Origin: Macrotis lagotis
Lineage: Eukaryota; Chordata; Mammalia; Peramelemorphia; Peramelidae
Reading direction: 5' to 3'
DNA length: 64,000 nucleotides
Assembly (NCBI RefSeq): GCF_037893015.1
Contig: NC_133658.1
Location: 286,817,719 to 286,881,718, forward strand
A program made the position numbers and the translations under genes. This document shows positions 29 through 63,037 of this stretch, piece by piece. The stretch's first letter is position 1. Each line of letters begins with the position of its first letter. The notes below the pieces were generated by a model. That model had not been told where the DNA came from, searched no databases, and worked only from the letters and a program-made list of their open reading frames with translations.

Positions 29-133
29 CTTATTGATTCCACATTCAGTTCCATCTAGGAGTGGTATAAGGATGCGGCTACAGCTGGTTTGGTCCTGAGG
101 GTCTGTATGGCAGGAGAGAACTTGGCACATATC
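29..133 (-). CDS. ADAMTS13: ADAMTS13 exon: start of disintegrin-like domain
   Basis: 35 codons, phase 0 at both ends: [20 protein letters not shown] then [15 protein letters not shown], matching the human disintegrin-like domain. Acceptor TTTCTCAG|GAT, donor AAG|GTAAAA. This is the last exon before the left edge. Confidence 0.96.
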
Positions 134-3100
134 CTGAGAAAGGATGAGAGAAAGCTGTAAGTTTGATATCACACTTTTAAGGCCCATATTTGTATGGGCT
201 ACAGGGTCAGGGTACAAAGCTAGTTCTTCTTTCTAGGTTCTGTGGGGTTGGTGATGCCAGGTTACTCTGCAGCAGGGATCCTGATTACCATGGAGAGACA
301 TGTAGGGAACTGGAAACTACCAGAAAGGCAATGGGATACAACAGCATTGGGTTTAGAATCTTAAATATTCACTGGTTCTGAGATCCTGGGTAAATCACTA
401 TGATCCTATGATCCTAAGACACGAGGTTATCAGGGCAAGTGCAGCTGGGGACAGGTGATGGAGAAGTTTGGGCAGAGGGGAGAAGGAAGATCTGGGGCTG
501 ATACTGGGTAGGAGTGGGGAGATATCAGGACAGATCTAAGGTTCTACCTACAACATCATCCCTGGAGAAGGTGCAGGCCACAGCAGCACTCCCAAAAGCA
601 ACCCTGCATTGCTCATCTGCCCCATAGTAGAGGCCAGGCTCTGCCTGGGGAATTGTTCCTTCCAGGTGAGGCAGATCATTCACGCAGCTTGCCTTCCCTG
701 TGCTGGCAAAGATCCCAGCAGACTTTAACATCCCTCTTATCCCAAGTGTCCCCAGGTCAACAGACCAGTCCCAAGGCTGTAGTCCCCAAGGCAGGATGAG
801 ATTTGCTTTCGGGATCAACTCACTAAATGTGAAGCCAGAAGATCCCTCCTTATGCCACCTGTCTGCCTCTCCCTTGCCCCCTCCCTTCATTCACACAGCA
901 TATCAGGTAGTAATGGAATGGCCTCATTCGTTTTACCTTACAAAGTGTAGAAACTGCTCTCGGCTGCACTCAGACCATGTGAGGCCAATGCTGTTTGGGG
1001 TGCCACCAGGGGCCATGATGTGGTCATTGCTGCTACAGCTGTGTTCAATCCCATCATGATCAATACCAAAACTGCACTCAAAGACAGGGTGATAAGAACT
1101 CCTTTTGTCTTTTTTTTTTTTTAGGTTTTTGCAAGGCAAATGGGGTTAAGTGGCTTGCCCAAGGCCATACAACTAGGTAATTATTAAGTGTCTGAGACCA
1201 GATTTGAACCCAGGTACTCCTGACTCCAGGGCTGGTGCTTTATCCACTGCGCCACCTAGCCGCCCCTATTTTGTCCTTTTTCTAGAAGAAATTTTGTTGT
1301 ACTTATCTTCTTTCCCCTCCTTTCCCCTTCTCCATTCCCATCTAGGTTATGTTTAAGAACACCTGGAATACCAGCTTTTCTTTGACTTTACTAGTCTCCA
1401 ATGGACTGAGATTCATGTGACAGTTCTCTATCATTGAAGTTACAACTTTCTATTCCCCTTATAAACATTATCCTAAAACTTTCCTAGTAAAAAGCTTACC
1501 TTCTTAACCAACTGGGGCTATGGAGTATATCTCCTATTCAGTAATGTGGCAATTTTTTCCCATGGTCTACTTCTAACCTCCTCAGGTCTCAATTCCATTT
1601 TATTCTCTGGTCCTACATCTAGCCAGTGTTAATTCTTCTGCCATATTTCATTTCTGAAATCATGCTGGCCCTCCAATAGATTTTACATCCTGTCAATTCT
1701 CCTACTTTGTCTGAGGAAGGTCACATACCTGTGCCCAATCTCATGAGCAATGGTAACCCCCAGATCAAAGCCTGTGTCTTCTGTGATAAGGCAGCTCCAA
1801 GAGGTGGAACATGCACCCCCAAGCTGGGTCACTCCCCGTACCTGTTTGTTGCCATCTGACAGCTCTAGATCAAACCTACAAAAAAAGAAAAAGAAAAAAG
1901 ACAGCTCATAGGGACAAGGCACAGGTAGGGCAAACAGGACAGATGCAAACATGGTCTCTCCCACCTTTGAGAGCCCTTAGGAGTTTTCCAAGTTGCTTTT
2001 CCACTCCCTAAATCATTGATACTGAAGTGTATCAGAGGTGTGGTGATTGTTGTTTGTCCTTTATTCTCCAAGAGGACCATAAGAGGTAATGCCGTGACAT
2101 GCAAGTGAATTGGATTTAAGTGAGAGAAGGCTCTGCAGTCACCAGCCTCATTTTATACTCTCTCCCCAGGAGAGATCTGAATCAGGACTACTGGACTTGT
2201 GATTAAGAGAGGAAGAGTAGGACCTAGGAAAAGTAATATCCTATGCCAGGGTTTTGGCTTTCCAAGCTTCCAAAATAGGGAATTTAGTTACCTTGTGATG
2301 TAGAGGACCAAGTCAGCATGGTGTGGGTGGGTGTCATCTGGGGGATTGATTCTCTGGCTCCATTTACACACACTGAATAGTGAGGAGGTAAGGTTGGTGG
2401 TAATATTCAGATCTGCCTGAGAGGAGTAAAGAAAGAGGCCCTTCAAAGAACATCTTCTGAAGTTAGCATTATCTGTGCCACTGGCTAGGGGGTGGGCAGC
2501 AGGACAAAGGGGCTGCTTTCTGAATTCAATCTGCCTCCTACCTCTGGCTCGGTCATAATGATCATCTTTATCAGGTGAACTCGGAACTGGGCTCCTAGAG
2601 AAACATCTCTCAGCAGTTCTGCCCCCTTTTAAGAAGTGAAGCAGAAATGAGAAGAAAGGAATTGAAAGTAAAGAGATCAACAAGTATTTATTAAAGACTC
2701 CCTATAAGCCAGAGCAATTAAGTACTAGACATTTAAATTCACAAAAGGCTTTATATTCTAATGGAGGAGACAACATATAAAAATATTTACTATATAAATA
2801 TAAAGTTAATAAGTAAATACATACATGTACATTTATACACATAGTAATTAATTACAAATACAATTTAATACAAAGAGGGGAGGGAATATAGTAGTTGGTG
2901 AGGGTTCAGGAAATGTTTCATCTAGAACATGGTATCTGAGCTACATATCTGAGGGAAAGAGAATTGAAATAAAAATTAATTAGGCACCTAGTGCAATGGA
3001 CAGTATGCTGAACCTGTAGTCAGAAAGACAATCTTCCTCAGTTCAGTTCAAATCTTTCCTCAGACACTTACAAGCCACTTAAACTGTTTGCCTCAGTTTC

Positions 3101-6100
3101 TTCATCTATAAAATAAGCTGAAAAAGGGAATGACAAACCACTCCAGTATTTCTGCCAAGAAAAACCTAAATGGGATCATGAAGACTCAAACTAAAAAAAA
3201 AAAATGACCAAACAATGACAATGACAATACCAATAATAAATCAGAAAAGTGAAGTGTTTGTACCTCAGTGGACCTGTCAGGAAACCTTAACTTGAGCCAA
3301 GGTCTGCTTTGGACTTACTAGATGATCCTGGGCAAATCACCTAGTACCATGGCATGTTACAGCTAGAAGGAATTTGAGAGATTATATAGTCTAGAACTCT
3401 AATTTTATAGATGTGGAAACTGAGAAGCCACTTTTATATATTACTGGTTGAGATTTTATAAAATGAGGTTAACAAAAATATTTATAAAAGCTAGTCTTGT
3501 GGTAGCTACAAATTGGAAATCAAAGGAATATCCATTAGAAGAAATATTATTGTGCTATAAAAAATGATGAGCAGCATGATTTTAGAAAAAACTAAAAAGA
3601 CTTAGATGAACTGATGCAAAATGAAGTGAACAGAACTAGGAGCATGTTGTACATAGTAACAGCAGTATTGTACAATAAAAAACTATGAAAGATTTTGCTA
3701 ATCTCAGCAAAACAATGATCCAAGATAATCCCAAAGGACTAATGATGAAGTACTATCAGCCTCCAGAGAAAGAACTTGTATTTTTTAAATACTGACTGAA
3801 ACATGCTATTTTTCCATTTCCATTTCTTTTCTTTTTTCTCTGAGTCTTCTTCATAACGACTAGTAGGGAAATACTTTACATTATTGCACATGAATATATC
3901 TGATTGCTAACTATCTAATGGATAGAAGAGGAGAGGGAAGAAAGGAGGAATAGGATTTGGTACTCAAAACTTTAAAAATGCAGGGGCAGCCAGGTGGTAC
4001 AGTGGATAGAGCACCAGCCCTGGAGTTAGGAGTACTTGAGTTCAAATCTGGCCTCAGACACTTAATCTTTACCTAGCTGTGTGGCCTTGGGCAAGCCACT
4101 TAACCCCATTGCCTTGCAAAAACTAAAAAACAAAAAAAACCTTTAAAAATGTTAAAAATGTTTTAAAATGTATTTGGGGGGAAAATAAAATATATTTAAA
4201 AAAATAAATAGGGGTGGCTAGGTGGCACAGTGGATAAAGCACTGGCCCTGGAGTCAGAAGTACCTGGGTTCAAATCCGGTCTCAGACACTTAATAATTGC
4301 CTAGCTGTGGCCTTGGGCAAGCCACTTAACCCCATGTGCCTTGCAAAAAACCTTTAAAAATAAATAAATAAATAAATAAATGAGATTAGCAAAACTATCA
4401 TTTTCATCTAACCAAAAGTTGCCTTAAATGATATAACAAATACACATAAAAGAATGTGGAAAGTAAAGAAGCTATAGAAATATAAAATTTTATTGTGGGT
4501 CTTTTCTTTACTTTTAGACAGGACCAGTGATTTCATTAGTGTAGAGCAGGGATGGGAACTTTTTTTTTCCTGCCAAAAAATATATCCCTTTTGATTGATA
4601 TTATAAATATACTGATATTTATAATATCAATCAAGGGATATATTTGGTCAAATATTTAATTAATTCACCCCTAAAAGACTACTAGATTTACTGAATTTGG
4701 AATCCCCATCCACCCCCTACTCCCCAGAGTTGCCTTGGCAGTCCCAGACCAAAGCAGGCGAGAGGTTCCCCCATCTGTGGTGTAGAGAATTCTTGACTAG
4801 GGCTTCAGGATTATCCCAGATAACTGCAACTCTATCAGTATCTGTTTGGCAATTTCTATCTGCCCAGGGTCACATGATCATCATATGCCAGAGGGAAATT
4901 CAGTCTTCTTCCTTGATTGTTGAATGCACTGTTCTATAAAATCATGAATGATTTGAAAAGGTTAAGCCTCTGCAGAAGGTAAGTCTGACTCATTGAATTT
5001 CAGAATGGAAGAAATGGATGGGTAGTCAATGTTAAGTCGGGTAAATAAATTTTTCTTTACAGGACAACTCTCTACCATAAGTGCAGGGATAACATTTAAT
5101 TCCAAAGATTTATTCAGTATTTCCTTGAAGTGCTTCCCACCAAAAGTCCTATGTAAAGTAAGTCTTGGAGCAATGTATTTAAATAGGAGTTATTAAAATG
5201 TTTCAATGTGATCTAGGGCCCTGCTTTGGAAATCACTTACAATATTGAGATTTGTGAGGATATATCGCTCTGTGTCTTCCTTGTGGTACTCATAGACATC
5301 ATGGCCCACCACAACCAATAGCTCCAGATGTTTGACATTTCCTAGGGCCCGTTTTGAGATCCGAGGGGAAAATCCATGAGCTGTGTGCAAAATGCCAAAA
5401 GAGTAATGATCAGGATAGAATAAAGTCCCACACTTAGGAAAGTGGGTTTTAGTTTCTCAGATTTTCAAAGATTCTTCCCAAATCCAAGGCAATTTGTAAG
5501 CCTTCCTGGCCTAGGACCCTGTAGTAACAGAATTTGCAGAACACTCTATAGGGAAGGGCTGGGTAGACAGCTAGATATTCAAGTGGATGGAAACTAGGTC
5601 TAGAGTCAGGAAGACCTGAGTTCAAATACAGTTTCAGATACTTACTGGCTATGTTACCCTGGGCAAGTCACTTAACCCTGTTTGCCACATTGCCTCATCT
5701 GTAAAATGAGCTGGAGAAGGAAACAGCAAACTACTTCAGTATCTTTGCCAAGAAATTCCAACAGGAGGACACAAGGAGTAGTATACTTAAACAACTGAAT
5801 TACATCAAGAACATGAGGCCTACATGGACATGAAGTTGCTTTGCTATATAACTTTACTAGACAGTTGTCCTGTCTGAGAGAGAAGGATGGTACCTTGTAG
5901 GGTCTCTGATGCCCTCTGAGTAGTCTTGTGAATAAGGTGGGGCTGGGCAAGTCTGTGGTCTGCCACCAAGCTCCAATGCTCTCTCTTCAGAGGTTGAATG
6001 TAAAGCTGCTCACCCTTCATTATGATCTCCCCTTGCTGATAAAAATAAAAAAGAATATGAAGCAAAGGGAATGACCCTTTATCTTCCCTCTTTAGAAGTG

Positions 6101-9100
6101 AGTTATTTCATTTTACAATTATTCTCCATGTTATTTTCCTTGATATTTGGTTCTTAGATTGCTTCCCTCCCACTTCTGTTTGCAAAGTCTTCCATCATGT
6201 TTTCTTCCTCACTAGAGTTGTCCTACTACCTATAGAAGATATACCCTGAGCTAAATATCTGACAGTGAATATTAATTTACACTAATTCATATGCCCTTTC
6301 TTTCTCTTTCCTGTTATGAACACAAATTCATATTTGTAAGGTGGCTGGGATGCCAATTTCTAATACTAACATGCTAACTGGTTCATATAGAGCCTGGACC
6401 CCATGGTGTTGACCTTAGAAAGATTATGCTCTACACAAGCAAACAACTCTATTCTAAATATAGTTCCTCAAAATCTTACCTAATCACTCTTTGAGGTCAA
6501 CAGAATTTAGGCCTTAGGAGATTAGTGTGGAAGTGTCAAAGATAAAATCCTTTATTGGATCATTGCTGTATAAGTAAGAAGAAACTAGTTAAGCCCATTC
6601 TAAATCCTAGAACCTGTCACAGAACTGAAGCAGAATCACAGAATATTTGAGTTGGAAAAGTATCTCCAAAATTATATAGCATCTAATCTTCTCATTTTAG
6701 AAAAAGGAAAATTGAATCCAGAGAGGGAAAATAGCTTGGCTAACATCACAGAGCCACACAGAGGCACCATATGGTATGATGAAAATGATTTCTGATGATG
6801 TTCGTCCTTTGTTCTGGAAAAAGACCATGACATCAGGGAGGTGATACAATGACAAGCACATGAATTGTATCTGAGTGAGGCAGTGCCAAAACTAAGTCAC
6901 CAGCCTCACTCCAGAGTCATCTAGGCCCAGTGGCCAGATATGGATCAGGACGACTGGAGATGGCCCTGGATGTGAGACAATCAAGGTTAAGTGATCTGTC
7001 CAAGGTCACACCTAGGAAGTGTCAAGTATCTGAGGCTGGGTTTAAACTCAGGTCCTCCTGACTCCAGGGCTGATGCTCTATCCACTGTACTATCTAGCTT
7101 CCCACAACATGGTGTGATGAAAAAAATCACTGGATTTAAAGTCAGAGGACCTGGGTTAATTACTACCTATGTGCTCCTGGGCACATAGACCCCTTTATGG
7201 GTCTCAATTTTCTCATCTATACAGTAAGAACACTGGACAAGATGGTCTGTAAGAAATTTTATGGTTCTAAATCTATGAACCTAAGAGCCAAGCTCTTTTG
7301 ACTACCAATTCACCAACTTAGGAACTAGAGTTTTTAAAGATATATTCAATAACCAAGTTAAGGAAAATTAATCATACACATTTTCACAGAACCTTCCTCT
7401 CATTCTTCTACTTTGAGTTCTAGTGGTTGTCATATTAGGCTCAATATCCCTCCCACTAATATATTCCACTTAGCTGCAAGCAAATGTTAATAAGATGAAG
7501 CCACTAATAAGCCTAGCATTCACTCACCAATTGCCTGGCACAGTAAGTAATCTTAGCAGTAGTCACAGGGGGCAATAGGACCCTGCCTCCTGTAATGCAA
7601 CTGTCTGGATATTGTTTCAGCTGCCAGAGAGAAGAGTTTACCACCCATTGGCTGGTAAAGGATGGAATCAGGAGACTGAGCTCTTCAGGGAACTGGAAGG
7701 CAAAGTGTTCTGCCAGGGCCTCGAAGGTACAATATTGGGTCTTACAACGCAGCCTGGAGATCCCGTGGTCTTCACAAAGGCAGCTGAGCTGAAGAATATC
7801 GAACTCTAGGGCTGGAAGAAACAAGATGGGCTGTGTGATTTAGGAAATCTTAGCTCAGCATTTCTGCAGTTCTCTCTGATGGAGAAAATGGGCAAAACTG
7901 AATACTTTGGAGAACTTATTTTTCAGGAAGAGGCCTCCTTCATTAAAAACCTGCATTTTTAAAATGATCATCTTCTCTCCACTAGACCATGAACAACCCT
8001 TTGGTCCTTGAGGGAAAAGACAGTGATTCCTCATCTGTCATACTAGTACCTAACAGTGCCTGGCAGAGCTACTAAAACCCCAAAAATCTGTGCTTTCAGT
8101 AGCAATGCAGACTCCCAGTATGGTTTCACCAGGTCAGGACAAAACTACCTCCAATAGTGGGTATGCAAGCCCTGAAGCACATAAAGACTAAGGATCTCAC
8201 AAGTAAGCCTCAGAAGTCAGATTTGAATAAGGATTTTCTGTCTCCAAAGCCAATGTTCTTTTCACTATGCCAACAATACCCCTTGGACCTTGAACACTGT
8301 AGGTGCTGAATAAATGTCTTCACATTTTAATTGAATATACTAGGTATAGAAAAAGGCTGCAAGTAACAAGTGAGTCCATGTCAGTAGTAGAAAGTCCCTT
8401 AATACTCTACTCTGCCTAGGGATACCCATACAATGACAAAATTTGTCATGCTCCTAAATCTCCAATTAACAAGCAGAGAAGTATTCATATGCGAGGGTGA
8501 AAATTGATTAATTAATCGCTTTGGTTAAAAAAAAAAGTGAGGCAATGCTATTCATCTCCATTTCCCACCAAAAAAAAAGTTAACCCTGAGTTCTATTAAA
8601 TAGAAATAACCCTTCTTAAATAAAAAAAAATGCTGAAGTTGAAGGGATTTTAGAAAATATCTATCTTAATTGCCTTGTTTTATAGATGAGAGACAGAATC
8701 CTAGAAAAAGGTACTTGCCCAAGCTAATTGGAAGCAATTTGAGATATTTTAAAACATTCTTTTACTGAAAGTTCTGAAATCAGATCTCTAGCTCAGTCCT
8801 GAAAACTACTCAGATCATGTTTCTATATATTTGTCAGTAAGATAACAGCAAGCATTTCATTAGCAGGAAGATACTTGGTCCATGGAAGAGAAGTAGCTTC
8901 CCCCTCATACATACTTCTAAGAAAAAGGTCCTTACAACATGTGTCTTAGCCTAAAGTGGGGGATGTAACAATGAAAATCAAAAACATATTGACTCAACTA
9001 ATTATCATGGAAGATAAAAATTAGTAATGTTTCCCTTACTAAAAAAACACCACAGAATAGTACCTTCTAGGTTGGAAACAGCACCAAAATAAAAGAAAAT

Positions 9101-9718
9101 ATTCTCTGGATCCAAATTCATCAGAAATCTCTGAAAGAGAAAGGGAAAGGAAGGAGCAGGTATATTTTAGTAAATATATATTTTCACTTTTCACTAGATG
9201 AAAAGAAATGATCATAATAATGACAATATTCCTTCTGTAATAAATTGGCTTTAGTCTCCTGGATTTCTAAGTTCTGACTTTAATTTATGTCAAACAACTT
9301 GATATTAGTTCAAAGAAAAATAAAAACTAACTTTTGTGTACTATTATAAAGTTTACAAAGCACACTATAAAACATTGTACTATTTAAGCCTTTTAATAGC
9401 CCCAAAACAGGCACTACAATTATTATCCCCATTTTACAGATGAAGGGACTGAGTCTCAGAGAATTTAAGAAAATTGCTGGTAGTCATTTATCTAGAAATC
9501 ATTAGAGTCCAGTTTTGAATCTACACCTTCCTGACACCAAGTCATTTCTTTTATTTAACAAGATGGTCAGTTTCAATCCATGTCATCATATTTTCAAGGA
9601 CCATAATTCCCTGAATATTAGTATTTCCAGGGAGTAAACTCACCTTCTGGAAATCTGGGAGCTGGAAAGATCCCAGAAGGAAGAAAGCAGAAGCAAAGAT
9701 CACCCATGTGCTAACCAT
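29..9718 (-). CDS. ADAMTS13: ADAMTS13, von Willebrand factor-cleaving metalloprotease (5' part, 11 exons, 485 residues)
   Basis: Secreted zinc endopeptidase that in mammals cuts von Willebrand factor in plasma. Coding exons (minus strand, 5' to 3'): 9644-9718, 9064-9130, 7528-7811, 5894-6035, 5241-5380, 2542-2625, 2292-2416, 1729-1875, 937-1071, 552-702, 29-133. All junctions are GT-AG and keep phase. Residues 1-20 form a hydrophobic signal peptide, about 21-200 a propeptide, and about 201-430 the metalloprotease domain. The zinc site HEIGHSFGIDHD is at 350-361, completed across a splice, with a Met-turn HIMAPGG after it. The disintegrin-like domain starts near 450 ([12 protein letters not shown]). 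Identity rests on near-complete agreement with remembered human ADAMTS13 ([19 protein letters not shown]) and on REXO4 lying head to head. The start ATG has G at -3 and at +4. Thrombospondin repeats and CUB domains lie beyond the left edge. The propeptide is far longer than in human. Confidence 0.97.
552..702 (-). CDS. ADAMTS13: ADAMTS13 exon: end of metalloprotease domain
   Basis: Residues 401-450, from [14 protein letters not shown] through [16 protein letters not shown] to [10 protein letters not shown]. Acceptor TTTGCCAG|C completes a split serine. The donor GTT|GTAGGT is preferred over the nearby TAG|GTAGAA because it gives phase 0, as the following exon needs. Confidence 0.94.
937..1071 (-). 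CDS. ADAMTS13: ADAMTS13 exon: third zinc ligand and Met-turn
   Basis: Residues 356-399 begin FGIDHDG, giving the third zinc ligand H360, then NDHIMAPGG (Met-turn) and [15 protein letters not shown]. Acceptor GAGTGCAG|T lies only about 37 bases from the poly(A) tail of a SINE at 1108-1266. The donor TAAG|GTAAAA was chosen because it alone fits the next exon in phase. Confidence 0.95.
1108..1266 (-). repeat. tRNA-derived marsupial SINE (main family)
   Basis: Head (GGGGCGGCTAGGTGGCGCAG) at 1266, poly(A) tail at 1108. It carries a box-B-like GGGTTCAAATC and the GGCCTTGGGCAAGCCACTTA core. Near-identical TTTTGTC stretches flank it as a target-site duplication. It lies in the ADAMTS13 intron right before the active-site exon. 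Confidence 0.93.
1729..1875 (-). CDS. ADAMTS13: ADAMTS13 exon: first half of the zinc site
   Basis: Residues 307-354, ending in TIAHEIGH with the catalytic glutamate E351 and zinc ligands H350 and H354. Also [19 protein letters not shown], characteristic of ADAMTS13. Acceptor TTTTTTTGTAG|G, donor CACAG|GTATGTG. Phase 2 out. Confidence 0.98.
2043..2200 (+). repeat. Long composite SINE family, partial
   Basis: Opens GTTGTTTGTCCTTTATTC, then GAATTGGATTTAAGTGAG and CACCAGCCTCA, shared with copies at 6795, 33513 and 48281. 3' part decayed. Confidence 0.65.
2292..2416 (-). CDS. ADAMTS13: ADAMTS13 exon: protease domain with N-glycosylation sequons
   Basis: Residues 265-305, [20 protein letters not shown] through HADLVLYIT. 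It carries two overlapping-region sequons, NIT and NLT. Acceptor CTCTCAG|GCA; ends in phase 2 at ACAAG|GTAACT. Confidence 0.96.
2542..2625 (-). CDS. ADAMTS13: ADAMTS13 exon: protease domain (AELLRD segment)
   Basis: 84 bases, phase 0 at both ends, acceptor CTTAAAAG|GGG, donor GAG|GTAGGA. Reads [20 protein letters not shown] then MIIMTEPE, nearly the human sequence. Confidence 0.96.
2978..3200 (+). repeat. tRNA-derived SINE with extended tail, decayed
   Basis: Shows a TTCAAATC box-B-like motif, CCTCAGACACTTACAAGCCA, a CTCAGTTTCTTCATCTATAA stretch, CAAACCACTCCAGTATTTCT and a final A-run. Same family as the copies at 5563 and 57278. Confidence 0.75.
3530..3975 (+). repeat. LINE-1 3' end fragment
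   Basis: Contains the marsupial L1 tail phrases GAAGTGAACAGAACTAGGAG, GTACATAGTAACAGCAGTAT and CCAGAGAAAGAACTTG, shared with copies at 33215 and 41905. Non-coding remnant. Confidence 0.8.
3983..4141 (+). repeat. tRNA-derived marsupial SINE (main family)
   Basis: GGGGCAGCCAGGTGGTACAG head, GAGTTCAAATCTGGCCTCAG box B region, GCCTTGCAAAAAC tail and A-run. Nearly full length. Confidence 0.93.
4210..4381 (+). repeat. tRNA-derived marsupial SINE (main family) with (AAAT)n tail
   Basis: GGGGTGGCTAGGTGGCACAG head, GGTTCAAATCC, GCCTTGCAAAAAACC, then an (AAAT)n microsatellite grown from the tail. It lies 70 bases from the previous copy in the same direction. Confidence 0.93.
4578..4645. repeat. Near-perfect palindrome (hairpin, 4-base loop)
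   Basis: Arms of 33 and 31 bases (4578-4610 and 4615-4645) are reverse complements apart from a two-base indel in a T-run; the loop is ACTG. Very A+T rich. Possibly the core of a short MITE-like element. It lies in an ADAMTS13 intron. Confidence 0.8.
5241..5380 (-). CDS. ADAMTS13: ADAMTS13 exon: processing site and start of protease domain
   Basis: Encodes residues 191-236. SPRISKR is the likely proprotein-convertase site (cleavage after R200), followed by [17 protein letters not shown] and [13 protein letters not shown], the first strands of the catalytic domain. Only Lys-Arg with Arg at P5 is present, not the arginine-rich run of human. Phase 1 in, 0 out; donor ATT|GTAAGTG. Confidence 0.96.
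5563..5762 (+). repeat. tRNA-derived SINE with extended tail
   Basis: GGTAGACAGCTAGAT head (diverged), GAGTTCAAATA, CCTGGGCAAGTCACTTAACC, CATCTGTAAAATGAGCTGG and TATCTTTGCCAAGAAATTCC tail. Lies between two ADAMTS13 exons. Confidence 0.82.
5894..6035 (-). CDS. ADAMTS13: ADAMTS13 extra propeptide exon B (no counterpart in the human transcript)
   Basis: 142 bases, acceptor TTTTTATCAG|CAA after a pyrimidine-rich tract, donor CAAG|GTACC, phase 0 in and 1 out. Encodes residues 143-189: [16 protein letters not shown] then PHLIHKT. This is the hallmark ADAM/ADAMTS prodomain segment 'G-x-I-...-Y-x-I-x-P-L ... H-x-(L/I)-x' that precedes the furin site. Joined to exon A it adds 142 codons, a multiple of three. 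Confidence 0.85.
6795..7104 (+). repeat. Long composite SINE family
   Basis: GTTCGTCCTTTGTTCTGG start, AAGACCATGACATCAGGGAG, GATCAGGACGACTGGAGATG, then a SINE-like 3' part with GGTCACAC and CTCTATCCACTG. Same family as 33513 and 48281. Confidence 0.8.
7528..7811 (-). CDS. ADAMTS13: ADAMTS13 extra propeptide exon A (no counterpart in the human transcript)
   Basis: 284 bases, open throughout, acceptor TTTCTTCCAG|CC and donor TTG|GTGAGTG, phase 1 in and 0 out. Encodes residues 48-142. The latter half resembles ADAM/ADAMTS prodomains: a stretch like an AFG..F...L....LLAP.F segment ([20 protein letters not shown]), then C-x-x-G-G-R-V and, 12 residues on, ITYCARQL, as in the family's C-(Y/F)-x-G-x-V ... 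C-x-G-L core. Six cysteines are present. Homology is inferred from motif memory, not from an alignment run. The exon structure is read directly. Plus-strand frames here are shadows. Confidence 0.82.
9064..9130 (-). CDS. ADAMTS13: ADAMTS13 exon 2: propeptide N-terminus
   Basis: Encodes residues 26-47 ([20 protein letters not shown] and two more), matching the short human exon 2 in position, length and phase. Acceptor TTTCAG|AGA, donor GAAG|GTACT, ending in phase 1. That phase fits both the next exon at 7811 and the exon at 5380. Confidence 0.88.
9335..9555 (+). repeat. MIR-class SINE
   Basis: TATTATCCCCATTTTACAGA then GAAGGGACTGAGTCTCAGAG is the classic MIR core. Heavily diverged, old. Confidence 0.7.
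9644..9718 (-). CDS. ADAMTS13: ADAMTS13 exon 1: signal peptide
   Basis: Encodes residues 1-25. The start is [18 protein letters not shown], a basic-poor but clearly hydrophobic secretion signal. The ATG at 9716-9718 sits in GGCCATGG. The donor is AAG|GTGAGT and the exon ends in phase 0. No CpG island surrounds this start, unlike REXO4. Confidence 0.9.
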
Positions 9719-15198: not shown

Positions 15199-15300
15199 GT
15201 GAGTGAGGGGACGGGAAAGGGGGGGAGGCGCAGGCGGGAGGGCCCCCGAGTTCCAGGGCGGCCCGAGGCCGGCTGACGCTCCGGCTCGCTCCCTCCTCAG
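15199..15300 (+). other. REXO4: Probable REXO4 5'UTR intron (102 bases)
   Basis: CGAG|GTGAGTGAGG is a strong donor and CTCCCTCCTCAG|CC a strong acceptor, 102 bases apart, just upstream of the start codon. Inferred from splice signals alone; the open frame crossing it does not need the intron. Confidence 0.5.
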
Positions 15301-15317
15301 CCGCCTCGGGCCCTCGG

Positions 15318-15332
15318 ATGGCTCTGGGATGA
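15318..15332 (+). promoter_or_regulatory. REXO4: Four-codon uORF overlapping the REXO4 start codon
   Basis: ATG GCT CTG GGA TGA: its stop codon shares two bases with the REXO4 ATG at 15329-15331 (GGATGA). This layout can support termination-reinitiation and lower translation. Whether ribosomes use it is unknown. Confidence 0.65.
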
Positions 15333-15559
15333 AAGCCAAGGCCGGGCCCGCCGGATCTCCCAAGGGGCTCGCCGTGCTCAAGCCGGAGCTTGTCAAGAGA
15401 CCCGACCAGAGGAAGCAGAAGAAGAAGAAGTTCCGGAAAAAGCACCCCCGGGCGGCCGCGAAAGCCGCCAAGAAACCGGGGAATAAGGCGGCCGAGGCGG
15501 CGGCGCTGCCCCCCAAGGGGCCGCAGGAATTCTCTCACAACTGGAAGACCTTGCAGGAG
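15329..15559 (+). CDS. REXO4: REXO4 coding exon 1
   Basis: Residues 1-77: lysine-rich [14 protein letters not shown], a likely nucleolar targeting stretch, ending [10 protein letters not shown] as in human. Very G+C rich; donor GAG|GTAAGC, phase 0. Confidence 0.95.
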
Positions 15560-18500
15560 GTAAGCCGTAAGCGCGGGCCGAGCCGGGCCAACGGGACCCA
15601 CGCCCTAGCTCAGCTCCAGCACCCTTAGGTTTGTTTTTTTAGTTTTTTTGCAAGGCAGTGGGGTTAAGTGGCTTGCCCAAGGCCACACAGCTAGATAATT
15701 ATTAAGTGATTATTAAGTGTCTGAGACCGGATTTGAACCCAGGGACTCCTGACTCCAGGGCCGGTGCTCTATCCACTGCGCCACCTAGCCGCCCCCTGAA
15801 GAGCTTTTTAAATGAAGGGAAAGGAATGAGTTTTCTGCTTGACACTAACGCAACAGGAATGTAAGAATAATTCCCAAAGATCCAAAAATAGGTAACATTT
15901 ATATCACACCTCCTATGTGCCATGCAGTTTATCATTATTACCTCATTTGGTCCTTAGAAAAAAAAAAAAACCGAGGGGGGCTGCTGTTATTATCCCCATT
16001 TTATAGTTGTGTCTGAGGCCAGATTGGAGCTTAAGGCTCCCTGGTGCTATCACATACCTGCTTTCAATGTATGCAGTCTTTTTCCCCCCAAGAGGAAAAA
16101 AGGAACCCACAAGGCTAAATAAGTTTTTACGTTATTTTTTTTTGCAGTACCATTTAGTATACTGTAACTGTATAAAATAAGTTCAAGATGCTGTGAGAGG
16201 TTGAAAGGGGGTGGGGTCCTAGGCTTGGAAATTAGGTAAAGTTTCAAAACAAAAAGATCTGTGGCTAATCCCCAGGTATTTGTTGCATTAAGTGTTTGAC
16301 ATTCTGTAGAAATAAGGAATAGGTATTAGATTGGAAGCTACAACTGGAAAAGAATAGGTTAGTCTGAAATAATATATGGATATAAGTTTAAATTCTTTTT
16401 TTAATATTTGACAATTCTTTAGCAAAGAAAATCTAGAGTTGAAAATAATCATTAAGTGAAAAAAGAGGAACTTTGAGAGTAGAGACATCATTTTTATTGA
16501 TGTTCTACTCCAAGACATAATTGTCATTTAATAAATGCTTGTTGATTCATACACAGGACCATTTGCCTTTAGATGGTGCTAAGTGCTCTTAGTAGGAAAA
16601 GATGTTCTTAGATAAAGAACCACATGTTTTGAATGTTTAAGTTTCAAGTTAAAATATAGGGTTTGTTGGGGGGTTTTGTTTTTTTTTTTTTGGTTCTCAT
16701 CAGCTGTTGAAACAGAAAACACCACATCCAGAAAAGTCTGTTCCTGCTTCCCTGGTGAATTCCAGAAAACAATCCAAAAGCTACCAGAATGGCAGAAATG
16801 TTTCTAAAAAGGAAGAATATGGTGATGCAGAACTAGCAAAGGTGCCAGACCCACCCTCCTCCAAGGCTTCTATTCCTTCAGGATCTTTGAAAGACACAAA
16901 GGTTGTCCCTCATAAAAAGTTAAGTGAAACAAAGGGCAAAGACAGTGGAACTGAAACCAAGAAAAGAAAAAATGGTGGCTTTCACCAGAAAATAGGGGAC
17001 ATCAAGCATCAGAAGAGAAAAGCAGAGGAATTAGTTCCTCCTCCACCAACAGAGTGAGTATTGAAGCTCCTGGATTCCTTTGCAATTGGAATGAATAATA
17101 TTGTTTAAGGAGGAAGAAAACATTCTAATTCCCACAGTTGACCTTCGTGGGTTTTTTGCTTCAGGTGTACACTGAGTTTTTTTTGGGGGGGGGTTAGTAT
17201 TTTTTTGCAAGGAAAATGGGGTTAAGTGGCTTGCCCAATGCCACACAGCTAGGTAATTACTAAGTGTCTGAGACCGGATTTGAACCCAGGTACTCCTGAC
17301 TCCAAGGCTGGTGCTTTACCCACTGTGCCACCTAGCCGCCCCCACTGCACCACCTAGCTGTCCCTACACTGAGTTTTAAAAATAAGTTAAGTGGAGCAAT
17401 GAGTTAATGTTGTTGACTCTTTGATATGGAGATTTAAGTTTTGACTTGTCTGTTGCAGAAATGAACTTTAGGACATGGATCCATTAATTATTTTGGTGTA
17501 TACTTAATAGAAACCCCATTAGTGGAAGTTCAGAACAAAGCCAAGATCAAAATGTCAGTTCTGAACTTGAAATCCACGAACTTTTTTTTGTTTTTTAAAT
17601 TGACTATTTCAGTATAATAGAGGGGTTTCTGGTTATAGTATTTTATTAAGGTTATGTTATTTTATGCATTTTAAGAACATTATTTTGACTTAAGGGCCAT
17701 AGGCTTTTTACCACACTGCCAAAATACATGACACAAAAACGTTTACAGAACTCTGATGTAAAGAATTCCTTCTGTACACCCTTTGCCTACATTGGTTTTG
17801 GTGCCAGTCATAGCCCTCATGACAGCAGATGAGAAGGAAATGGAAGAAGTACATCTTTCCTTTGGTGCCAAATGTCTTGTCTTTGCTTTTTAGATCAGAC
17901 ATCTGGTTTGATGATGTAGATCCTAAGGATATTGAAGCTGCCATTGGTCCAGAAGCTGCAAAAATAGTCCGAAAAAAATTGGGTCTGAAGGAAAGTAATC
18001 TGTCACTGGTGAAAGAAGGAGCATTTGAAGGGTATGTTGAAGGGTTGTTGTTTTGTTTTATTATGGAAGAAGAAATATATGCCACAATCTTCAAGGGCAT
18101 ATATAGGTTTTCTTCCTTCTTTTTTGTTAGGCAATGTAAATAATCTTCCATGAAGCACCTCTTTAGTTAAATGGCAATAACCAAGGACATGTCACTTTAT
18201 TACCAAACAGATCATGTCAGGATAGAGTCACTTGTGTCCCTGCTGTAAGTTACAAATATGCAGAGATTCTTCCTTAATCCTGATATTTTAACCCAGACCT
18301 TTGGTTTCCTCTCAGAATGACCAAAGCCATAGCTATGGACTGTGAGATGGTGGGAGCAGGGCCAGATGGGGAAGAAAACATCCTTGCCCGAGTGTCCATC
18401 GTGAACCAGTTTGGGAAGTGTATCTACGACAAGTACGTCAAGCCAACAGAGAAAGTGACCAATTACCGGACAGATGTCAGTGGGATTCGACCAGAGGACA

Positions 18501-21500
18501 TCAAACATGGTATGCCTCTCATAAATACCAGAACTAGCCTGAAAGAATTACTGCTGGGAACATCTGTATTTATTTCTCCCCCTTCTTTATGCAAGAAGTG
18601 TTATTTGTAGTACAGAGTTCTGTCAGAAGTTTGTCCCTAGGGACTTTAAAAGGGTAGAAAAGATTGAATGGCATATGACAAAAGACATCTAGTTCATTTA
18701 TCCTCATGTCAGTTCTCTTGGAGAGACACAAGAATTCTCATTTTGGGGGAGAAACCCGTGATTTGGGCCTTTCTAACTCTTCTGAAACCAAGGACAGTGT
18801 TCTTTGTATTCATTTCTGCTCTCATACTATGCTTGTTAAAATCTAGCTTTTAATGGTGGGAGATCAAGCAAGGTTCTGGTAGCTAAGGCATTCTTACATA
18901 AAGGAAAAAATCCATGTTTTGGATTTAGGTTTGTATGCCCTCTCTCCCTCTGCTGCGTAACCATGGACAAATCATTTGAAATCTTTGAACATCCTGAAAA
19001 AAGATTGTACTGAATGATCTTTTTTTTTTTTGCAAGGCAAATGGGGTTAAGTGGCTTGCCCAAGGCCACACAGCTAGGTAATTATTAAGTGTCTGAGGCG
19101 GGATTTGAACTCAGGTACTCCTGACCTCAGGGCTGGTGCTCTATCCACTGCACCACCTAGCCGCCCCTGAATGATCTCTTAAGGTCCCTTCCAAGTCTAC
19201 TGTTCTGTGATTTTTATAATTCTAGTTTTAATGTATTTTTAAACAAGGCCTATTTTTTGCCACTTACATAAGGATAGCCTTCCCCTAAGATCCTCTTTTG
19301 ATGCTTCACTGTGGTGTGGACATGACCCCCTGAACTCATGAAATCTTTGCCAGTGGTATGTTCTGGTAGGTTCCTCCAAACTAGAAAGACTTCAGGTGTG
19401 GGCTTAGAGACAGAGTTGCAGGATATTGATTTTTTTTTTTTAGCTACAACTTTCATCCCAAGATGTAGAAAGATTACAATCAGTTGAAGTAGGTTGCATG
19501 GGGGAACGGAATAATGACATGAAAGGTCTTTGGAAGAATTGAAGCAACAGAATTGATTTTCTCTTGACCTTAGCTTCCCCATTACATCCTACCTTTGTGG
19601 ACCACAGTGATGATTTAACTTCCTTCTGTATCTCCTGAATTGAAGGAAAGAAATGTTTGAAGATCCTACATGCATCTCATTCCCATCACTAAATGGGATT
19701 ATCCAGTTAGCACTTTTTCCCTGGTGTCTGGTGATTTGGAATTTACATGTATATTGTTTAGAACCAAGTCTTTGTGGGGGGATATAATCATACCATTTCT
19801 AACAGGTCTGGGAGTGTCATTGCCTTGCTGATTGTGATTTCTCTTAGTAACTTGCTTCTCCACCATTCATATGTTCTCATTTTCTAAAATAAGATTTCTT
19901 TTGGGTTTCCAGGAGAACAGTTCCACATTGTTCAAAAGGAGGTAGCAGAACTGCTTAAGGACAGGATTTTAGTTGGACATGCCCTACATAATGACTTAAA
20001 GGTATATGACTTCAGGTAGCCTAACTAGTAATTGTTTATACCTATATGGTGCCAATTAGCTTAGATCTTTAGATATATGCCAATAACATAAATCTTCAGT
20101 GTAGCCCTCAGTTTGGGGTTTCTTCCAGATGATGAGGGAATTGAAGTTTGTTCTTGGACTACAGAATAGCCTTTCTACTGAAGCTCTGACTTAGACTGCT
20201 CTGGTAAAATGTTTTATACTACTTTTTGTCATCTAGCTCATTTTGCTGTTATTACATTGATATTACATAACTATAAATATATCTAAACTAGACTAGATGA
20301 TGCCTATATGAAGGCAGGATTTCTGTCTTAGTCATTTTTGTGTCCCCTATAGTATTGGAGTACACATTCAGTAAATACTTAATCAACTTGAAACATGTAA
20401 GGAAAAAGTGTCACTCTAGAGATTGTGAGTTGATGGTTTATGATGGTCATAAAGCCTGTACTAGGCTTGCCTTGATTGGGTGACTATAATGTCACCTGGT
20501 AAGAAAATAGTAGTTAATTATAATAGCTTTTTGACAGAGCAGGATGGGAATCTGATAATTCATGTGTGTGTTTTTGAATTGTATTTCTATATTGTATTTC
20601 TGTTCCAGATTTTACTTCTTGATCATCCCAAAAAGAAGATCCGGGACACACAGAAATATAAACCTTTCAAAACACAAGTAAAGGTAGGATATTAGAGGTA
20701 AAGATAGCTTATTTATTGGAGGAAGAAAATCTGATCGTTCAGTGTATTAGTTTAATCTCAGTTCATACCAGTTGTTAGAACATTTCACCTTATAGTAAGC
20801 TCATGGGTTTGATTTATTTTTAGTCCTAGAAAAAGGATATTTTATATAAAGTAGATTGATGTTGGCAGCCTTCCATTAAAAAAGTTCATGTTTTATTTTT
20901 ATGCTCTGATGTTTGTAGTAGGATTTTTGTCTATGTATGTTATTACAAATAGCTTTCATAAGGGAGTATTTTCAAGGAAAGGACAATCTGGGAAATGAAG
21001 CAAAGAAGGCTTTAACATTGAATAATTATGCTTTATCATTTCATTTAAATTCATTGCCAAATACAATTTGATAAGATGTGCACTCAGTAAATTTTTGTTT
21101 CAGTAAATTCCATTGAAGAGAGGTAATGTGGCCTAGTACAGGGTCTAGCATTCTCAGAAGGAAAGCCTGAACCCCTCTGACATCTTGGCTGTGTGACTCT
21201 AAGCCAGTCATGTAACTTTTCACTCCCTCAGGCAACTTTGTGAGACTATAAGTTACAGATAATTTGACATTTGACATTGATAGAAAGGAAGGAATCTTTT
21301 GCAGTGACCAAATAGTGCCAGGGTGGGGTCTTATGTAATATCTCCATTATGTGGCAGAGGCAACTGTCCTAAATACCAGAAAGACTTAGATTTGTTTGGT
21401 CATGTAGTTGTGATTAATATCCCACTCTTTCCTTACTAGACCATTGAGCACTATTAAAACCAAAATTGACTTCTTTTTGACTTTTAGTCTGTTCTTTCCT

Positions 21501-23980: not shown

Positions 23981-63037
<39,057 letters not shown>

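Follow-up and report, generated by a model that had tools for sequence, protein, structure and literature searches.

The ADAMTS13 locus of Macrotis lagotis

We analyzed a stretch of 64,000 nucleotides of the Macrotis lagotis genome (contig NC_133658.1), named the window hereafter, and modeled on its minus strand residues 1–485 of ADAMTS13, distributed over 11 exons between positions 9718 and 29 with an unbroken reading frame (Table 1). The downstream catalytic domain is, judged by its resemblance to known structures, that of ADAMTS13: its best PDB match is human ADAMTS13 (PDB 6qig, E 8.2e-136, 455 bits), and since no other ADAMTS of known structure comes as close, the next best being ADAMTS-5 with 129 bits, the gene is considered an ortholog. 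It appears to run on beyond the window into an exon in which the first TSP1 repeat begins (locus L027). The second exon presumably corresponds to exon 2 of human and mouse ADAMTS13. On the opposite strand, an RNase_T exon with ISG20-type matches encodes a REXO4-like exonuclease, which we take to be REXO4 itself and not a relative; in human, REXO4 lies beside ADAMTS13, and the neighborhood observed here agrees with this gene order.

Table 1 Exons modeled in the window, with positions counted from its first nucleotide
Feature	Position	Strand	Remarks
ADAMTS13 exon 1	9644..9718	-	ATG and predicted signal peptide
ADAMTS13 exon 2, propeptide start	9064..9130	-	presumed human exon 2 equivalent
Extra exon A (N-terminal and central parts of the prodomain), 284 nt	7528..7811	-	C-x18-C core inside
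Extra exon B (C-terminal part of the prodomain, includes PHLIHK), 142 nt	5894..6035	-	
Human exon 3 equivalent	5241..5380	-	predicted cleavage between ISKR and ALGN, then catalytic domain begins
ADAMTS13 catalytic-domain exon	2542..2625	-	
ADAMTS13 catalytic-domain exon	2292..2416	-	
ADAMTS13 catalytic-domain exon	1729..1875	-	has HEIGH; Arg193 and Asp217 equivalents retained
ADAMTS13 catalytic-domain exon	937..1071	-	Gly at the Asp252 equivalent (HIMAPGG)
ADAMTS13 exon, end of catalytic domain and start of disintegrin-like domain	552..702	-	
ADAMTS13 disintegrin-like exon	29..133	-	gene appears to run on beyond the window (L027)
RNase_T exon, REXO4-like exonuclease	18317..18610	+	opposite strand to ADAMTS13

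Two additional exons ahead of the human exon 3 equivalent

Two exons, A and B, are intercalated between those that correspond to exons 2 and 3 of the human gene. With 284 and 142 nt, they total 426 nt and add 142 codons in frame, and each is bordered by an AG acceptor behind a pyrimidine-rich tract and by a GT donor. The initial annotation had claimed two in-phase extra exons adding 142 codons and joined through 9064/7811, 7528/6035, and 5894/5380; the lengths, phases, and splice sites confirm the former, and all three junctions are correct in our exon model. The phases are 1–0 for exon A and 0–1 for exon B, so the pair can be kept or skipped in frame, which neither exon can be on its own.

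The openness of these exons is more than a chance effect: when the nucleotides of the joined exons were shuffled 20,000 times (mononucleotide shuffles), 34 of the products remained open in frame, and, among the minus-strand AG..GT segments of the window, 3 of the 229 with a length of 284 nt and 12 of the 203 with a length of 142 nt are open in the same phase as the real exon, which is included in either count. The G+C content of the extra exons is 0.50–0.51, whereas that of the three adjacent introns is 0.37–0.41.

Relationship of the extra residues to ADAM and ADAMTS prodomains

The Pfam model PF01562 (Pep_M12B_propep) gives no match to the spliced protein or to the 142 residues at E values up to 10. 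Searched against the whole genome of Macrotis lagotis, the same model matches 26 places among the matches listed, and the ADAMTS13 locus is not one of these. From them, 24 prodomains, 14 of ADAMTS and 10 of ADAM type as labeled by reading the sequences, were assembled into a profile; two loci (L018 and L024), in which the motif failed to locate the stretch, were dropped. This own-genome profile recognizes the 142 residues with 24.4 bits (E 1.1e-5), the top of 10,000 shuffles reaching 11.1, and an earlier profile of 18 prodomains gave 25.3 bits (i-Evalue 1.8e-6). The check by profile HMM is thus negative with Pfam alone and positive with the profile built from the genome itself.

The profile match spans the exon A/B junction, and its signal requires both exons and both groups of prodomains. 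With the 24-prodomain profile, exon A alone scores 9.3, below the best shuffle, and exon B alone 4.8. A profile of the 14 ADAMTS prodomains yields a marginal 12.0 bits (12.9 for exon A alone), its best shuffle attaining 11.4, and that of the 10 ADAM prodomains a nonsignificant 7.0 against 11.3. When the ADAMTS profile was run over the 1162 open frames of the window, the exon A frame came first with 12.4 bits, the second reaching 7.8. The distance from the family is nevertheless large: in leave-one-out comparisons, the 14 other ADAMTS prodomains score 47–94 bits, each well above ADAMTS13, which with its 24 bits is far more divergent. Pairwise, at least 10% of 300 shuffles scored equally well in 11 of the 24 comparisons.

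The 142 residues are colinear with ADAMTS and ADAM prodomains: they display the C-x18-C spacing, the next Gly, the I-x-P-L motif, and a His near the end. The core of the 14 own-genome ADAMTS prodomains has the same organization with a C-x18 to x20-C spacing, and in the four loci with a readable continuation (L010, L017, L021, and L023) the Gly is followed by [YF]-x-[IV]-x-P, as in ADAMTS13. The ADAM prodomains of the PF01562 type share the pattern of Cys, Gly, and I-x-P, and several single-exon ADAM loci also the C-x-x-x-L-x-G spacing past the second Cys, although the Pfam model finds no match here and the ADAM-only profile stays in the range of shuffles.

In a PDB search with the N-terminal part of the protein, ADAMTS13 was matched by its catalytic stretch only. 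The other matches, to dTale2, a DNA-binding repeat protein (E 0.0079), and to HMG-CoA reductase (E about 1), appear fortuitous, and the Pfam search of the spliced protein and the 142 residues gave one match to a restriction enzyme model, at a chance-level E of 0.23.

An intron position shared with the ADAMTS family

The gene structure is the strongest independent evidence for a prodomain of this family. All 11 ADAMTS prodomain exons found in the genome that are split by an intron end in phase 0 directly after Cys-x-Gly-Leu/Met, where the exon end is defined by the motif and the GT following it and the acceptor is observed in L010 only. Exon A of ADAMTS13 likewise ends in phase 0; its last residues are Cys-Ala-Arg-Gln-Leu, which exceeds the family motif by one codon. 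In L010, the next exon lies 188 bases on, is also in phase 0, and begins with HGLIVADEEEYLIEPL, which resembles the start of exon B. Second prodomain exons were sought in the flanks of 11 ADAMTS loci and found in L010 only; none was found in the 2.5–3 kb downstream of six ADAMTS loci.

In three further loci (L017, L021, and L023), the ADAMTS prodomain reads through without an intron. If they belong to the ADAMTS1/4/5/8/15 branch, their intronless structure fits the view that this branch arose by retroposition, as proposed in PMC4349717.

The profile and the gene structure support the homology jointly. The 142 residues appear, on balance, to be a true but distant prodomain of the ADAM/ADAMTS type. 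The own-genome profile and the colinear core thereby uphold the type of domain that had been assigned to the two exons at the outset.

Features of the predicted propeptide

The propeptide comprises about 177 residues, close to the 180 or so claimed initially, if counted from the human-equivalent start up to Arg200, behind which cleavage is predicted. The cleavage site lies as far from the HLELL motif as in human ADAMTS13, which is the same gene by its catalytic domain. The sequence at the prodomain end does not follow the furin consensus R-X-[KR]-R: it is a dibasic ISKR with Ile in P4, and would make a weaker cleavage site than R-X-X-R. A single N-glycosylation sequon, NSS at residue 106, is present in the prodomain.

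Cysteines occupy positions 58, 60, 70, 75, 119, and 138, and residues 139–200, up to the predicted cleavage site, contain none. The third Cys, which follows the core ahead of the cleavage site as part of a Cys-Gly-Val motif, is therefore absent from ADAMTS13 here; among the four readable ADAMTS loci, Cys-Gly-Val is present in three (L010, L017, and L021) and absent from L023. Published statements conflict on such a residue: ADAMTS propeptides are stated to contain a cysteine switch in PMC6706451, and ADAMTSs are stated to be generally devoid of it in PMC4448532.

The designation of the prodomain as conventional, as first annotated, is too strong in view of the missing PF01562 match, the low score, the lack of Cys-Gly-Val, and the weak cleavage site. 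The idea that the protease is held inactive by its prodomain finds no support either, given a stretch from 139 to 200 with no cysteine ahead of a weak predicted cleavage site.

Origin and possible function of the two exons

The simplest reading of the locus is likely that of retention here and loss toward human. We consider it quite probable that exons A and B represent the ancestral ADAMTS prodomain, retained in Macrotis lagotis as a fast-evolving aid to folding or secretion, and that both were lost together on the way to human. The divergence would agree with the report that ADAMTS13 is the fastest-evolving member of the family (PMC4349717). In the scenario that we favor, translation of the extra exons would place their residues behind the signal peptide and ahead of the catalytic domain, giving the propeptide of about 177 residues; this would most likely assist folding or secretion intramolecularly in the secretory pathway and be clipped, probably inefficiently, by a proprotein convertase after Lys199-Arg200. 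A processing of this kind would have a parallel in ADAMTS10, described as poorly processed at a degenerate site (PMC8275829). The propeptide is probably not a cysteine switch. A role in folding or secretion seems likelier than latency because no cysteine occurs between 139 and 200, the cleavage site is weak, and the secretion of ADAMTS9 and ADAMTS17 is reported to depend on the propeptide (PMC8275829).

The human lineage would have dropped the pair in a single in-frame step, once its catalytic domain no longer needed a prodomain to fold. Mouse ADAMTS13 is also of the short form, which would place the loss before the split of primates and rodents.

The opposite direction, in which marsupials gained the exons by copying them from a different ADAMTS gene and the short form seen in human is ancestral, could equally produce the common intron position and phase. 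It is very improbable for two reasons. No close donor is found among the 24 prodomains: the best pairwise local scores of the 142 residues are 69 and 63, below the median of 97 between ADAMTS paralogs (lowest 32), these ADAMTS scores being lower bounds as most rows are devoid of the second exon. Moreover, each of the 14 ADAMTS loci other than ADAMTS13 was found to have a prodomain, and its ancestral absence would therefore cost an extra step. The lack of a close paralog makes a recent borrowing of exons unlikely, whereas the distance alone gives no date, since some ADAMTS paralog pairs are equally distant. The common intron position favors ancient retention over a marsupial gain, and the initial proposal of ancestral retention and loss in the human lineage remains the favored one.

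Two other explanations concern the use of the exons rather than their origin. The pair could be a cassette that some or most transcripts skip, with a short propeptide of the human kind as the outcome, and others include: skipping both preserves the frame, since phase 1 is then joined to phase 1, and on visual inspection exon 2 (gtactatt) and exon B (gtaccatc) seem to have weak donors. We regard this as unlikely, although less so than a gain, and the open and prodomain-like character of the exons indicates that their inclusion was under selection at some time. That they are decaying remnants no longer spliced in would account for the strong divergence, the absence of a Pfam match, and the missing Cys-Gly-Val; this seems scarcely credible for 426 nt that are wholly open, with intact splice sites, a raised G+C content, and the preserved spacing of the conserved core.

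Comparison with human ADAMTS13

The propeptide of human ADAMTS13 is reported to have 41 residues and to end at an RQRR furin site (PMC3787661), and removal of the prodomain is described as immaterial for the enzyme (PMC3787661, PMC8275829, and PMC4448532). The protein of Macrotis lagotis differs from it by 142 more propeptide residues, by ISKR in place of RQRR, and by a Gly at the equivalent of Asp252. In three papers, the short and dispensable propeptide is treated as a property of ADAMTS13 itself (PMC4448532, PMC8275829, and PMC10499240). Were it confined to the human lineage, the two forms would constitute a natural experiment on one protease with and without its prodomain. The literature searched (titles, abstract openings, and passages of selected papers) does not mention any species with a longer ADAMTS13 prodomain; unpublished gene models of other vertebrates may already show one.

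Gatekeeper residues of the catalytic domain

Alignment with 6qig indicates that the equivalents of Arg193 and Asp217 are retained and that of Asp252 is replaced by Gly, the residue numbers being derived from the spacing of 24 and 35. This triad is stated to be conserved from human to zebrafish, and the latent catalytic domain has been suggested to accommodate a noninhibitory propeptide (PMC6706451). A marsupial ADAMTS13 regulated at least partly by its prodomain, through slow or incomplete removal and a gatekeeper loosened by the change of Asp252 to Gly, would make the prodomain-less human enzyme, with its latency based on the catalytic and CUB domains, a late therian specialization that followed the exon loss; we put this forward as a speculative and rather doubtful extension. 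A triad dating back to zebrafish, combined with a prodomain loss within therians, would mean that the former did not arise as a substitute for the prodomain. Seen from the one species analyzed here, the gatekeeper triad may thus predate the prodomain loss, which bears on the accommodation proposed in PMC6706451.

ADAMTS prodomain exons and the catalytic domain of ADAMTS13

The genome was found to hold 11 ADAMTS loci whose prodomain is split by an intron (L001–L007, L009–L011, and L015). In each of them the prodomain exon ends in phase 0 immediately after C-x-G-L/M, a convenient sign of belonging to the ADAMTS family. The predicted cleavage site of the ADAMTS13 prodomain, ISKR|ALGN (window 5241–5380, minus strand), lacks Arg at P4, where furin prefers this residue. 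In the catalytic domain, the equivalent of human ADAMTS13 Asp252 is Gly (HIMAPGG; window 937–1071, minus strand). Asp252 is one of three "gatekeeper" residues, reportedly conserved from human to zebrafish (PMC6706451).

Neighboring reading frames

Pfam searches gave no match for the basic N-terminal exon of the REXO4-like gene or for the open frame, which presumably resembles STKLD1. The REXO4-like gene contains an RNase_T exonuclease exon.

Features neighboring ADAMTS13
Feature	Window position	Strand	Remark
REXO4-like gene	15203–18610	+	divergent from ADAMTS13
Open frame	27681–28085	-
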